From Spirochaetia bacterium (GTDB lineage Bacteria; Spirochaetota; Spirochaetia; PWKH01): DNA of 36,889 bases. Where the stretch lies: assembly GCA_007116075.1 (NCBI GenBank), contig SKJE01000162.1, positions 1 through 36,889 of the forward strand. Reading direction: 5' to 3'. The notes under the pieces are model-generated. The model did not search any database and was not told the origin of the DNA. It worked only from the letters and a program-made list of their open reading frames with translations. Within the stretch, counting starts at the first letter, position 1, and each line of letters opens with the position of its first letter. Positions 32,381-36,889 of the stretch are shown in pieces. The position numbers and the translations under genes are program-made.

Positions 32381-32986
32381 ATGGTACTGGTGACCGCCGC
32401 CATGAAGGCAGAGCTTCAGGGATTCTTCCGGCAGGACATAAAGACATCCAGGATGGCTGCATACGCCCTGGGGACAGGAGAAACAGCCAGTACTGCGGTG
32501 CTGCAGCAGCTTCTTGAGCAGTATACCCCGGAGGCGGTGATACACCTGGGAATCTGTGCATCCATAGACCAGGATATGCCTCTAGGTTCTGCCTTCATGC
32601 CCGACTGGGCGGCCCGGGAAGCATCTCCGGATGACACCGTCGGCTTTGATTCAAAGCAGGGAGAGCTGTTTTCCCATGTGCTGGTACAGGTGCTCAGGGG
32701 AGTTCGGCTTTGCCGGGGCGGTGGAATGCTCACTGGGGAGACATTCTTCACCCAGAAGATGAAACAGGAGATCAGCAGGGATTCACGGTTTGCGGCATTC
32801 CGCGGGGCAGACATGGAAAGCGCCGGGTTAGCCAGGTGCTGCGCCGATATGCATATTCCCCTGGTGGTTGCCAAGGCGGTATCCGACGATCTTCACAGCC
32901 CGGGACCTAAACGGCTTGCCCGGTTTATCGACAGATGGTCTGGGATGTTTGCTGAAGCCTGCTATCTGTATCTCGGAGCAATATAA
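32381..32986 (+). CDS. Nucleoside phosphorylase/nucleosidase family protein (MTAN-like)
   Basis: A small member (201 residues) of the PNP/UDP family, likely to cleave a purine nucleoside such as methylthioadenosine or S-adenosylhomocysteine. Seen: HLGICASID for the glycine-rich substrate loop, GADMESAGLARC with the ribose-binding Met-Glu, and AVSDDL with the catalytic Asp. It is about 30 residues shorter than typical MTAN, the N-terminus beginning directly with VLVTAAMKAEL. Some such short members are labelled futalosine hydrolase or 'nucleosidase'. GGAGGGG is eight bases before the ATG, inside the end of the kinase gene, so the two are coupled. Confidence 0.8.
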   Translation: MVLVTAAMKAELQGFFRQDIKTSRMAAYALGTGETASTAVLQQLLEQYTPEAVIHLGICASIDQDMPLGSAFMPDWAAREASPDDTVGFDSKQGELFSHVLVQVLRGVRLCRGGGMLTGETFFTQKMKQEISRDSRFAAFRGADMESAGLARCCADMHIPLVVAKAVSDDLHSPGPKRLARFIDRWSGMFAEACYLYLGAI

Positions 32987-34038
32987 CTGGTGCAGTACTC
33001 CCGGAGCCGCTGCTTTTCAGTCTCCGCTATGTGGGCGGCAGTCCGTTTGAGCCGCAGGATGTGGGCCCTGCTGATGTCATCCATAGGGATCGGCTTGTTT
33101 CCCTGGTTCCCGGCAATACGGTCATAGGTGACCTCCGGGAGTGATGTAAGCACCTGCTCTGTGGTGTGGTACTGTCCTGATGAGTAGATATGCAGCAGCG
33201 GTACCCCCTTTGACGGAGTGACCCAGTCAAGGATTCCCATCCGCTTGAGTCCCTGCATAGGCAGTGAGAAGAGACTTCCTGCTGTACCGATGGAGAGCAT
33301 GTGGAATTTTCTGGCTTGGGGAAAAAGACGCTTCGCCTCAAGATAGGCGTAGAGGGAAGGATTATTTGCAACCACCCCGCCGTCAATAAAGCACAGTTCC
33401 TTTCCTGTGTCCGGTGATGGAATAAAGGCCGGAGAAAAATACGTTGGAGCTGCAGTAGTGGCACGGGCGGCCTCAGCCATGGAAAAGGCGGGATTGCGAT
33501 ATGAGCGAAAGAGGTAGGGAGTTCCTTCAATACACTCATAGGCGGTGACCACCAGAGGTGTCATTGCATCTTCCATCAGCCTGGTCCCGAACACTTCCCT
33601 CAGGACCTCAGCGAGGGACTGTTCATCATATTTCTCCATAAAGAACTGTCCCAGGGGCCCCAGCTGCCTCAGCGGGCCTTTAGAGAAGATGTCCCCGCTG
33701 CGGGTCTCATAGAGCTCAAGGAGATTCTCCAGGGTCATGGCCGGCAGGAGCGGCTCAGGCTTGTCGTTTTTCCGCTTCCAGAATCCCTTTTTTATCTGGT
33801 GATCATCATGGCGTTCAAGCTCTTGGGGGGCGGTGAGGCCGAGGGCAATCAAGCCGCCGGTGGAGGTACCTGCAATCAGGTCAAAATAGGTATACAGAGG
33901 CTGATGAAGACCGAGGGACTCCAGCTGTTTCTGCAGCGCAATAAGAATGGTAATGGGAATGATTCCCCGGATACCGCCCCCATCCAGGGACAGGATAGTG
34001 ACATCCCGCTGTTCTGTACGACCAAAGGGTAACTTCAT
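32962..34038 (-). CDS. Patatin-like phospholipase/acylhydrolase
   Basis: A lipid acyl hydrolase of 358 residues with a Ser-Asp dyad. Motifs: oxyanion-hole glycines SLDGGGIRG (residues 17-25), nucleophile S59 in GTSTG, and D219 in IDGGVVANNPS. The family includes CapV-type effectors of CBASS defence, but no cGAS-like nucleotidyltransferase is next to it, so a housekeeping lipase or a phospholipid remodelling role is the simpler reading. No signal peptide. ATG 34038 has no Shine-Dalgarno; a promoter ending five bases upstream suggests a leaderless message. It converges on the nucleosidase gene with a 25-base overlap. Confidence 0.9.
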   Translation of the reverse strand: MKLPFGRTEQRDVTILSLDGGGIRGIIPITILIALQKQLESLGLHQPLYTYFDLIAGTSTGGLIALGLTAPQELERHDDHQIKKGFWKRKNDKPEPLLPAMTLENLLELYETRSGDIFSKGPLRQLGPLGQFFMEKYDEQSLAEVLREVFGTRLMEDAMTPLVVTAYECIEGTPYLFRSYRNPAFSMAEAARATTAAPTYFSPAFIPSPDTGKELCFIDGGVVANNPSLYAYLEAKRLFPQARKFHMLSIGTAGSLFSLPMQGLKRMGILDWVTPSKGVPLLHIYSSGQYHTTEQVLTSLPEVTYDRIAGNQGNKPIPMDDISRAHILRLKRTAAHIAETEKQRLREYCTSYIAPRYR

Positions 34039-34093: not shown

Positions 34094-34133
34094 AAAAAAG
34101 AGCCGTCAGGATTTTTATGGATCCTGACAGCTC
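34094..34133 (-). terminator. Intrinsic terminator of the lipoprotein gene
   Basis: On the minus strand GAGCTGTCAGGAT pairs with ATCCTGACGGCTC (13 pairs, one G-U) around an eight-base loop and is followed by TTTTTT. It begins 12 bases after the stop codon. Confidence 0.93.
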
Positions 34134-34145
34134 CCATTCTTACCC

Positions 34146-35402
34146 TCAGCGGGCCTGCTCAATGGCCTGTTCGGCCAATACTACAAATTCATCAATATGG
34201 ATCGTAACCCCCGATACAGCATCTGTGTAGCCGCCGTCATCGTAGGGAATATCGGTACTCTGGGTACGAAGCAGTTCGTTTTCTACTCGCTGGGCCTGGA
34301 CGTACCACTCATCAATGGCGCCGCCCCGGGCAACCATCTGATAGCCGCCTTCCAAGTCAACGGTTTTCTTGTCCCTGCCGTCACGATGGGTAGCGCTCCA
34401 GTTTACATCGGCAATAAAGCCGTTGACTACTGTGAGGGTAACGTTTCCCTTCCAGCCAGACGATGCATATTCATCCGCTTCTGCATGGTACACTCCGTCT
34501 GCAAGATCGGGGTACTCAACAGGACCGTGATCCAGAGATGCCTGCACTAGTTTAACGAAATCATCTATATGAATCGTGACCCCTGAAACTGCATCAGTGT
34601 ATCCATCATCGTCGTAGGGAATAGCCGGATCTTGGGTATCAACAAGCAGATTTTCCACTCGCTGGGCCTGGACGTACCATTCATCGATGGCGCCGCCCCG
34701 GGCAACCATCTGGTAGCCGCCGTCCCGGTCAACAGATTTCTTGTCCCTGCCGTCACGATCAACAGCACTCCAGTTGACTCCTGCGATATACCCGTTGATA
34801 ACATTAAAAGCTACGGTGGATCTCCAGTTTCCTGAATATGCCTGAGCAGAGGTGAAATAGATCCCGTCCTCATATGCTCCCGGGCCTGAAGGTCCTTCTG
34901 CAAGGGCCTGGTCCACCAGGTCGTAGAATTCAACAACACGAATTGTCACCCTTGAGATATCATCGGTATGGCCCCGGTCACTGGTATAGGAGATCGCCGA
35001 AGGATCCTGTGTTTCCAGCAGGTATGCTTCGGTGCGCTCTGCCTGGACGTACCATTCGTCGAGAGCGCCGCCCCGGGCAACCATCTGATAACCGCCCATC
35101 TTGTCCAGGGTTTTCTTGTCAGGTCCCGAATCACGGTGTACTCCGTTCCAGTCAGCCCAGACGAAGTCGCCCTGTTCCACTTCAAAGGACACTACATATT
35201 TCCAGCCCGATGAGGCGTAATCATCTTCCATGGCAAAATAGATCCCGTCGGCAAACGCTCCCGGTTCCGCAGCTGGTGCAGCGACGGCAACGGGGGTCTG
35301 CTCGGGAGCAGCTGCCTGGGGTGCAGGTTCACTCTGCTGACCGCAGCCGATAAGGGCTGTCGCCGCCAGAAGCACAATGCCAAAAAATACTATACGTTTC
35401 AT
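34146..35402 (-). CDS. Lipoprotein with three tandem FMN-binding-like repeats
   Basis: A surface or periplasmic lipoprotein of 418 residues. Signal peptide MKRIVFF to LIG with lipid-modified C20, then a 30-residue Ala/Pro-rich linker, then three repeats of about 124 residues (about 51-172, 178-300, 303-418). Each repeat runs ADGIYF or similar, GW-K/R..V.F.V..G, W......RDGRDKK, GGYQMVARGGAIDEWYVQAQRVE, and ends TDAVSGVTIHIDEF. The last segment resembles the flavinylation motif of FMN-bind domains (SGAT), here SGVT in repeats 2 and 3 and SRVT in repeat 1; the Thr is kept. The family may be that annotated as major membrane immunogen lipoproteins (Tpp15-like), from memory. AGGAGG precedes ATG 35402 by five bases. 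Confidence 0.85.
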   Translation of the reverse strand: MKRIVFFGIVLLAATALIGCGQQSEPAPQAAAPEQTPVAVAAPAAEPGAFADGIYFAMEDDYASSGWKYVVSFEVEQGDFVWADWNGVHRDSGPDKKTLDKMGGYQMVARGGALDEWYVQAERTEAYLLETQDPSAISYTSDRGHTDDISRVTIRVVEFYDLVDQALAEGPSGPGAYEDGIYFTSAQAYSGNWRSTVAFNVINGYIAGVNWSAVDRDGRDKKSVDRDGGYQMVARGGAIDEWYVQAQRVENLLVDTQDPAIPYDDDGYTDAVSGVTIHIDDFVKLVQASLDHGPVEYPDLADGVYHAEADEYASSGWKGNVTLTVVNGFIADVNWSATHRDGRDKKTVDLEGGYQMVARGGAIDEWYVQAQRVENELLRTQSTDIPYDDGGYTDAVSGVTIHIDEFVVLAEQAIEQAR

Positions 35403-35439
35403 GTTTCCTCCTAACATAATGATCAAAAGAATTACCTGT

Positions 35440-35468
35440 ATTATAAGGTTAATAAAAGACTAAGACAA
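35440..35468 (-). promoter_or_regulatory. Promoter of the lipoprotein gene
   Basis: On the minus strand TTGTCT (35468-35463) and a perfect TATAAT (35445-35440), 17 bases apart. The start near 35433 gives a leader of about 30 bases with a strong ribosome binding site. Confidence 0.7.
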
Positions 35469-35476
35469 TATCTCCC

Positions 35477-35505
35477 TTTCCTTAATCGAGCGTTTTCGCT
35501 ATAGT
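35477..35505 (+). promoter_or_regulatory. Promoter of the NusG-domain-II gene, predicted leaderless
   Basis: TATAGT (35500-35505) ends six bases before the ATG at 35512; the -35 region is poor (TTTCCT at 35477-35482). No Shine-Dalgarno. Confidence 0.5.
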
Positions 35506-35511
35506 TTTGGC

Positions 35512-35886
35512 ATGTTACGGTTGCGGCCTGCGGACTTGGTTATACTCCTCATTACTATTGTGATTATCACAGGCCTGTCTGTCTCCATCTATGGAAGAAC
35601 CGGGGAGGCATCCCAGGTCCGCATAGAGGGCTCCGGACAGGAGTGGATCTATCCCCTTGATCAAGATTCCTGGATACACATTCCCGGCCCCCTGGGAGAT
35701 ACGGAGGTGGTGATTGAGGAGGGGAAGGTCCATGTGCATGATTCCGCGTGCCGAAACAAAATCTGCGTTACCACAGGAATTATTGAGCGGGTAGGGCAGT
35801 GGATCATCTGTCTTCCCAATGATGTGTTCGTCAGAATTGAGGGTGCCCTAGAAACTGAAGGGGAGGTGGATGATGTCGCCTTCTGA
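35512..35886 (+). CDS. NusG domain II (DUF1312) membrane-anchored protein
   Basis: A protein of 124 residues with one N-terminal membrane helix (about residues 8-27) and an extracytoplasmic domain of the NusG_II family: EVVIEEGKVHVHDSACRNKICVTTG followed by GQWIICLPNDVFVRIEG (shown as two pieces of one motif region, residues about 66-113). Two Cys of the DSACRNKIC pattern are kept, as is CLPN. The same architecture is found in EetA of the Listeria flavin-based electron transfer locus (established family resemblance, not a search result). It overlaps the Gx transporter gene by 17 bases and is clearly in an operon with it. Confidence 0.88.
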   Translation: MLRLRPADLVILLITIVIITGLSVSIYGRTGEASQVRIEGSGQEWIYPLDQDSWIHIPGPLGDTEVVIEEGKVHVHDSACRNKICVTTGIIERVGQWIICLPNDVFVRIEGALETEGEVDDVAF

Positions 35887-36403
35887 TCATCCTGTGCGTG
35901 TCCGGGACGTAGCACTTCTAGCTGCCTTCGCACTTTTTTTATCGACAATTGAGTATGTGATCCCCAAGCCCCTGCCGTATATGCGCATAGGTCTTGCAAA
36001 CCTGGCAATAATGATCGGCATCGGGTGTCTTACTATGAAGGAATATTCACTTCTGGTCATTCTGAAGATACTTGGACAGGGGGTGCTGCACGGGACCCTG
36101 TTCTCATATATTTTCTTGTTCTCCCTCGGCGGCAGTCTCTCCAGTGCTGTGGTGATGCTGCTGCTCTACAGATCACTAAGAAATAGGGTGTCCATGGTCG
36201 GTATCAGCATAGCCGGCGCCTTCGTAAGCAATATCGTACAGATCCTGCTCGCCCGGATGCTGCTCTTCGGACAGGCCGCATGGCTCATAGCTCCCCCCTT
36301 TCTGATCACTGGACTGGCGGCGTCCCTGCTTCTCGGTTTTTTTGCCCAGGGATTTATGGAGCGCTCCCGATGGATAGCTTCCAGGATGCCGGGGAGCAGT
36401 TGA
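35870..36403 (+). CDS. Gx transporter family protein (Hpre_diP_synt_I)
   Basis: A membrane protein of 177 residues with about five helices. Family features: LPYMRIGLANLAIMIGI near residue 35-50, LKILGQGVLHGTLFS and SLGGSLSSAVVM. Members are often named heptaprenyl diphosphate synthase component I, but the fold resembles ECF transporter substrate subunits; EetB of the Listeria electron transfer locus belongs here. GGGAGG sits four bases before ATG 35870 and seven before the next ATG (35873); either could serve. It is coupled to the genes on both sides (17-base overlap upstream, TGATG downstream). Confidence 0.88.
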   Translation: MMSPSDHPVRVRDVALLAAFALFLSTIEYVIPKPLPYMRIGLANLAIMIGIGCLTMKEYSLLVILKILGQGVLHGTLFSYIFLFSLGGSLSSAVVMLLLYRSLRNRVSMVGISIAGAFVSNIVQILLARMLLFGQAAWLIAPPFLITGLAASLLLGFFAQGFMERSRWIASRMPGSS

Positions 36404-36889
36404 TGAATAGAAGAAACATTCCCCTGGCCTCGGGGCTGCTGATGCTTCCGGCCCTGGTATTCCAGAATCATCTGCCCAGTCTTATCATCCAGGCACTGTT
36501 TCTCATGCTGCTGCAGCTGCTTCTGGGAAGACGCATAAAGATACTTCCCAATCTGGTAATGCTGTTGAGCATCACCACACTGAACCTCTTTCAGCCCTTT
36601 GGAAGGATCCTTGTTACCCTCTTCTCGCTCCCTGTGACCCAGGGGGCATTGGAACTCGGCTTTCGACGTTCCTTCACCCTGATCGGGTTGATCTATCTCT
36701 CCCGGTTCATGGTGATATCCCGTCCGAGATTTCCCGGCAGGCTGGGCAGACTCTTATCGCTGCAGTTCACTTATTACGAGGGATTTCTCACCAGGAGAGT
36801 GTCTCTTCGGCCCTCTGTGATTGTGGAGAGTCTGGATGAACTTTTGTGTGAACTGGAAAGGGAGGGAGGATCCGATGAGCAGCCGGTCA
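36403..36889 (+). CDS. Membrane protein of unknown function, cut by the window edge
   Basis: At least 162 residues from ATG 36403, which overlaps the previous stop as TGATG. Hydrophobic segments lie at about residues 8-45, 50-62, 68-80 and 88-103, followed by a basic stretch and the segment FTYYEGFLTRR. The pattern NLFQPFGRILVTLFSLPVTQ then GALELGFRRS is reminiscent of CbiQ/EcfT transmembrane subunits of ECF transporters, which would suit an S-component-like Gx transporter next door, but I hold this weakly. A likely ribosome binding site (GGAGGGAGGA) and ATG at 36875 in another frame suggest that the following gene overlaps its end. Confidence 0.65.
   Translation, partial: MNRRNIPLASGLLMLPALVFQNHLPSLIIQALFLMLLQLLLGRRIKILPNLVMLLSITTLNLFQPFGRILVTLFSLPVTQGALELGFRRSFTLIGLIYLSRFMVISRPRFPGRLGRLLSLQFTYYEGFLTRRVSLRPSVIVESLDELLCELEREGGSDEQPV

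Follow-up and report, generated by a model that had tools for sequence, protein, structure and literature searches.

A probable left half of a Listeria-type flavin-based electron-transfer locus at a contig end of a two-membrane spirochaete

The window analyzed here is an entire contig of 36889 bases (G000:C127) from a fragmented spirochaete MAG (G000; 2.2 Mb, 93.9% complete), and its right edge is the assembled contig end. At that end lies a divergent pair of transcription units: a gene for a PplA-like lipoprotein is read from the minus strand, and eetA, eetB, and a third gene for a small membrane protein are read from the plus strand (Table 1). The third gene occupies the position that fmnA holds in Listeria-type loci. 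The eetA and eetB genes overlap by 17 nt (35870/35886), and eetB overlaps the third gene at 36403, which confirms the coupled operon proposed in an initial annotation of this DNA. That annotation also named a lipoprotein, a NusG_II protein, and a Gx transporter (here the PF07456 protein); all three are in place, and profile matches confirm their families. It described the operon as running off the window, which is correct for the right edge, but that edge is the assembled contig end, and the locus is truncated there, at 36889. The collection holds four genomes of the order to which the source organism belongs (G000, G001, G002, and G003, at 94, 81, 85, and 89% completeness), and eetB is present in all four.

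Table 1. Features at the right end of the contig (positions in the window).
Feature	Position	Strand	Basis or remarks
pplA-like lipoprotein gene, 418 aa	34146..35402	-	Lipobox LIGC, three FMN_bind-fold domains; NF041941, 2KZX, AF2/Foldseek
eetA-like gene, 124 aa	35512..35886	+	One N-terminal TM helix and NusG_II, PF07009 E 3.7e-23
eetB-like gene, 177 aa	35870..36403	+	ECF S-component-type membrane protein, PF07456 E 1.2e-36
Small membrane protein gene, fmnA position	36403..36889	+	Truncated at contig end; 162 aa present of a total of about 190
Intrinsic-terminator-like hairpin, 15 pairs, U tail	34098..34135	-	Just 3' of pplA
Sigma-70-like promoter, candidate, 10/12 match	35440..35468	-	Divergent intergenic region, upstream of pplA
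Thr154 codon, predicted FMN acceptor, domain 1	34944..34946	-	Sequence; altered motif TDDISRVT (Gly to Arg)
Thr277 codon, predicted FMN acceptor, domain 2	34575..34577	-	Sequence; TDAVSGVT
Thr401 codon, predicted FMN acceptor, domain 3	34203..34205	-	Sequence; TDAVSGVT

Chance alone would give 2.3 terminator-like sites in the region, where three occur, and the stem that follows pplA is by far the longest. The promoter-like site is offered as a suggestion only, the number of such sites not being above chance. A patatin-like phospholipase gene (32962-34038, minus strand) adjoins pplA and is kept in all four genomes of the order; its product scores 183.6 bits against the NCBIfam CBASS phospholipase model, for which the cut-off is 200. 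A nucleosidase-family gene (32381-32986, plus strand) weakly resembles futalosine hydrolase (35 bits; cut-off, 125), in a genome without MqnA.

The lipoprotein (P0001) carries a signal peptide with a lipobox and three repeats of approximately 120 residues, spanning residues of about 52-170, 178-294, and 301-418. It matches the NCBIfam PplA model NF041941 with an E-value of 9e-29 and 100.6 bits, which is far below the curated cut-off of 325 and makes the protein PplA-like rather than PplA in NCBI's strict sense. It also matches PDB entry 2KZX (E 1.8e-35). The score against Pfam FMN_bind (PF04205) is 21.6 bits, just under the cut-off of 22, whereas three close orthologues (60-65% identity) score 28.2, 33.1, and 46.3 bits. 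An AlphaFold model of the protein based on ten homologues (pLDDT 80, pTM 0.77) contains one fold in three copies, and Foldseek matches it to 2KZX (E 2.5e-10) and to 3O6U, which has been named as the nearest structural neighbor of domains that carry covalent FMN (PMC10339131). The repeats belong to the FMN_bind/PplA fold. Placement outside FMN_bind, the outcome against which the initial annotation had set its flavinylation-like lipoprotein, is ruled out by the 2KZX match, the orthologue scores, and the Foldseek result, and the description of the protein holds.

Each repeat contains a predicted FMN acceptor threonine. When compared with the ApbE substrate motif, which is Dxx[ST]GA[ST]-like, the three motifs (SRVT, SGVT, and SGVT) keep the acceptor Thr and have V in place of A, and that of domain 1 also lacks the Gly. 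Domain 1, with Arg for Gly, may not be modified by FMN. Listeria PplA carries its FMN on Thr143 and Thr265, and Ser can stand in for Thr (PMC8906456). Among PplA-like relatives, Clostridia and Bacilli included, the 'A' position of SGAT is most often occupied by V, and all motifs found have T or S as the acceptor; the first of these observations rules out a novel flavin motif. Three domains are also found in the PplA-like protein of one Clostridia MAG (L035). What had been flagged as a new, three-headed, noncanonical FMN domain is thus ordinary for PplA-like proteins, in which three or more domains and SGVT/GVS motifs are common features. The lipoprotein resembles SaFMN3, which binds three covalent FMN groups (PMC10339131), and other multi-flavinylated proteins, for which up to 13 sites have been predicted (PMC8238504), in having three tandem FMN domains with Thr acceptors. 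The SaFMN3 domains, however, are shorter, and the P0001 model matches them only weakly (8p2a, TM 0.55 of target). The genome encodes a second PplA-like FMN_bind lipoprotein (L004; contig C38, 4932-5189; NF041941 E 1e-33), with no EET genes beside it in the stretch covered.

Because the edge of the window is a contig end, the genes missing past 36889 were sought in relatives. The close relatives G001-G003 are spirochaete MAGs labelled CSSed, which we take from these labels to be soda-lake sediment MAGs. In all three, patatin and pplA lie on one side, followed by eetA, eetB, and the fmnA-position gene, a convergent apbE, and then ndh2 and the polyprenyl synthase gene; apbE sits immediately past the position homologous to 36889. 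The G001 contig stops within ndh2, and the rest of that gene is on another contig. A neighborhood containing apbE, ndh2, and polyprenyl synthase, which the initial annotation had suggested looking for, is therefore found directly beyond the homologous point in each of the three relatives. G000 itself has ndh2, which shares 76% identity with its G002 counterpart, and the polyprenyl synthase gene (PF00348, E 1e-57) on a separate contig, C81, and the encoded Ndh2 has a C-terminal membrane part with TM segments at 551-605. On C81, ndh2 is not beside the apbE site; upstream of ndh2, a DUF6232 gene (L029:3954-4556) takes the position that apbE has in the relatives. An imperfect inverted repeat of 17 bases borders this stretch on both sides and may be the trace of an insertion. 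In G000, G002, and G003, the next gene after polyprenyl synthase encodes a PorV/FadL-like outer membrane protein (L012:7447-8541, L011:6644-7789, and L029:1-525); nothing links it to electron transfer.

No apbE was found in a search of the 93.9% complete G000 MAG. This is best explained by an assembly gap, since the contig breaks off right in front of the apbE position and the two Rnf/Nqr-type operons of this genome would need ApbE. We reject a loss of ApbE from the lineage, as the three nearest genomes have apbE exactly beyond the contig end and G000 keeps other flavinylation targets. The Listeria-like gene set that had been proposed for the locus accordingly stands with respect to apbE, ndh2, and polyprenyl synthase in the relatives' block, but DmkA is encoded elsewhere in the genome and the apbE of G000 itself was not recovered.

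A profile of the three-domain protein matches 29 of 393 Spirochaetota genomes, all in the class of the source organism, and 20 neighborhoods around these matches were inspected. The full block is present in three (L082, L083, and L086), which belong to another Spirochaetia family. Three more (L084, L085, and L090) have pplA beside ndh2 and polyprenyl synthase, and in a further three (L087-L089) a two-domain pplA is followed by a UbiA gene and then by polyprenyl synthase and ndh2. The other neighborhoods contain pplA without the remaining genes close by within the stretch covered. Two spirochaete MAGs (L033 and L034) show the same block order, and their lipoprotein is longer, with an additional, divergent fourth repeat; Clostridia (L035 and L037-L039) have the same components as the spirochaete block. 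In L090 (4954-8833), pplA and ndh2 adjoin genes resembling UbiD, UbiX, and UbiA, along with those for an ABC transporter whose binding protein is NMT1-like; these neighbors could be a set for the uptake and processing of quinone precursors. Similar UbiD and NMT1-like genes occur near apbE and ndh2 in L038 (names in both loci assigned by eye).

This distribution bears on whether EetA, EetB, the fmnA-position protein, and ApbE mainly supply flavin to Rnf/Nqr, with the neighborhood of PplA being incidental. G000 has two Rnf/Nqr-type operons, the FMN_bind subunits of which give strong matches, and many Clostridia have EetB genes together with Rnf (PMC9973259); the block, however, stays with pplA and ndh2 in several spirochaete families as well as in Clostridia, and we regard a main role in Rnf/Nqr supply as unlikely. 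Given that these operons need ApbE, part of the module could nevertheless serve them.

The Pfam name of PF07456 would make EetB one half of a heptaprenyl diphosphate synthase and the operon one for isoprenoid synthesis, in line with the polyprenyl synthase gene nearby in relatives. Listeria EetB, however, binds FAD, resembles ECF S-components, and is needed for FAD export (PMC9973259), rendering a prenyl synthase subunit highly improbable. In the FAD exporter of Listeria, EetB serves as the FAD-binding S-component and FmnA as the T-component; both are required for FAD export and PplA flavinylation, and fusions of EetB with ECF-T proteins are known (PMC9973259).

The protein at the fmnA position has no significant match in Pfam, NCBIfam, or PDB profiles. 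In hhalign comparisons with seven ECF-T (CbiQ family) proteins from the same four genomes, it scored no better than column-shuffled controls, the alignments being shallow, and its AF2 model was poor (pLDDT 45) and was left out of the fold search. With Pfam, PDB, and hhalign giving nothing above controls, a recognizable ECF-T could not be demonstrated. The gene is nonetheless kept after eetB in syntenic spirochaete loci, and in one locus (L097:295-1782) EetB and the fmnA-position protein are fused in a single polypeptide of 495 aa. Because of this retention, this fusion, and the known EetB/ECF-T fusions, the protein is likely a partner of EetB; it may have an ECF-T fold.

Each of the four genomes encodes one UbiA. 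Those of G000 and G002 are closest to DHNA polyprenyltransferases, with a UbiA score of 201 bits against a cut-off of 277, and the G000 protein shares 43% identity across 307 aa with the UbiA encoded beside pplA in L089. Its gene is near apparent carotenoid genes (identified by eye), outside the EET block. The profile match and the identity to a pplA-linked UbiA indicate that it is probably DmkA. Searches for the MenD and MqnA/D families, both positive in control genomes, found no member in any of the four genomes, and four independent assembly gaps at these completeness values would be a coincidence of approximately 2 in 10,000. Without MenD or MqnA, the quinone would have to be imported or replaced. 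Like Lactiplantibacillus plantarum (PMC10746273), the lineage may obtain DHNA, or a precursor resembling it, from outside. That quinone-auxotrophic EET bacterium also combines a DHNA prenyltransferase and a polyprenyl synthase with the lack of DHNA synthesis; unlike its auxotrophy, the possible one of the spirochaete, and with it an outside source of DHNA, is deduced from gene absence in incomplete genomes.

By a published rule, EET is indicated by an NADH dehydrogenase with a TM helix encoded inside a flavinylation gene cluster (PMC8238504). Such an arrangement is present in G001-G003, L033, L034, L082, L083, and L086, whereas ndh2 of G000 is on a separate contig. The components found in G000 are the FMN_bind-type, PplA-like lipoprotein together with EetA and EetB (PF07009 and PF07456, both above cut-off), and counterparts of DmkA and DmkB are present as the UbiA near DHNA prenyltransferases and the PF00348 polyprenyl synthase. 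In gene content, gene order, homology, and fold, the locus corresponds to the left half of a Listeria/Enterococcus-type locus, and we consider it probable that it functions as such, in flavin-based extracytosolic electron transfer in a two-membrane spirochaete. Several observations weigh against this assignment: no apbE was found in the MAG, ndh2 is away from the apbE site, neither MenD nor MqnA is present, no ECF-T similarity is detectable in the fmnA-position protein, and the Rnf/Nqr-type operons need ApbE. A two-membrane envelope, moreover, leaves no exit route for electrons that we know of.

The comparison with Listeria draws on an NCBIfam profile, papers, and clostridial loci, and flavinylation, the direction of electron flow, and FAD export are proposed by analogy with Listeria work (PMC9973259, PMC8906456). 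In the proposed mechanism, membrane-anchored type II NADH dehydrogenase (Ndh2) would oxidize NADH and reduce a demethylmenaquinone-type quinone, the product of DmkB (the polyprenyl synthase) and of DmkA (the separately encoded DHNA prenyltransferase). Electrons would then pass from the quinone to FMN groups covalently bound on the PplA-like lipoprotein, and from there to an extracytosolic acceptor. ApbE would attach FMN to Thr277 and Thr401, and perhaps to Thr154, using FAD exported by EetB together with the small fmnA-position membrane protein and ECF ATPases; EetA would be an accessory protein with a putative role.

Alternatively, these electrons could stay in the periplasm, with the PplA-like protein feeding a periplasmic reductase or a soluble acceptor, so that transfer is extracytosolic but not truly extracellular; we give this somewhat less than an even chance. 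The cell has two membranes, no outer-membrane redox conduit was recognized in the stretches covered, and the genome encodes further FMN_bind proteins, including the second PplA-like lipoprotein; extracytosolic reductases commonly receive electrons from FMN-binding domains (PMC8238504). On the other hand, spirochaetes are able to put lipoproteins on their surface, the PorV/FadL-like gene follows polyprenyl synthase in this lineage, and no reductase gene was recognized adjoining the block in the loci examined, for which annotation was nonexhaustive.

The spirochaete system shares with Listeria-type EET the PplA-like lipoprotein, EetA, and EetB. In relatives, the same block also encodes ApbE/FmnB, polyprenyl synthase, and an Ndh2 that has a membrane part at its C-terminus, again as in Listeria-type EET. 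The spirochaete system differs in its two-membrane host, in having three flavin domains instead of two, in a dmkA outside the block, in a pplA divergent from eetAB, and in the protein without detectable ECF-T similarity at the fmnA position. The cad/cAD1 pheromone-precursor module of Enterococcus and other bacteria has the same cad-apbE-ndh-polyprenyl synthase gene set, and a spirochaete was named in 2019 among its carriers (PMC7074142). That text, in contrast to the present locus, contains no spirochaete anatomy, no eetA/fmnA analysis, and no multidomain PplA. The novelty initially suggested for a spirochaetal version is therefore lost for the carrier itself but retained for the conserved spirochaete arrangement of the block, which is new, as are an fmnA-position protein that lacks detectable ECF-T likeness yet is once fused to EetB and a lineage with a DHNA prenyltransferase but without MenD/MqnA. 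Flavin EET genes have also been predicted in Gram-negative-type cells of Candidatus Effluviviacota, the first such claim outside Gram-positives, made in 2024; in those cells, which also have multihaem cytochromes, Nuo is the proposed electron source of the chain, whereas the spirochaete has a dedicated Ndh2 (PMC11323493).

Our analysis extends a known flavin EET system, described mainly in Gram-positive bacteria and only recently claimed outside them, to a two-membrane spirochaete, in a version conserved over several Spirochaetia families, some with single-contig genomes. As a tentative proposal, which we hold to be possible although rather unlikely, the fmnA-position protein would represent a new family of membrane partners for the EetB FAD exporter, forming with the three-flavin PplA a diderm-specific electron-export system dependent on quinone precursors from neighbors. 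A DHNA prenyltransferase without MenD or MqnA suggests quinone cross-feeding in sediment communities. The finding also raises the question of how a PplA-type chain, which in Gram-positive bacteria ends at the cell surface, works behind an outer membrane.
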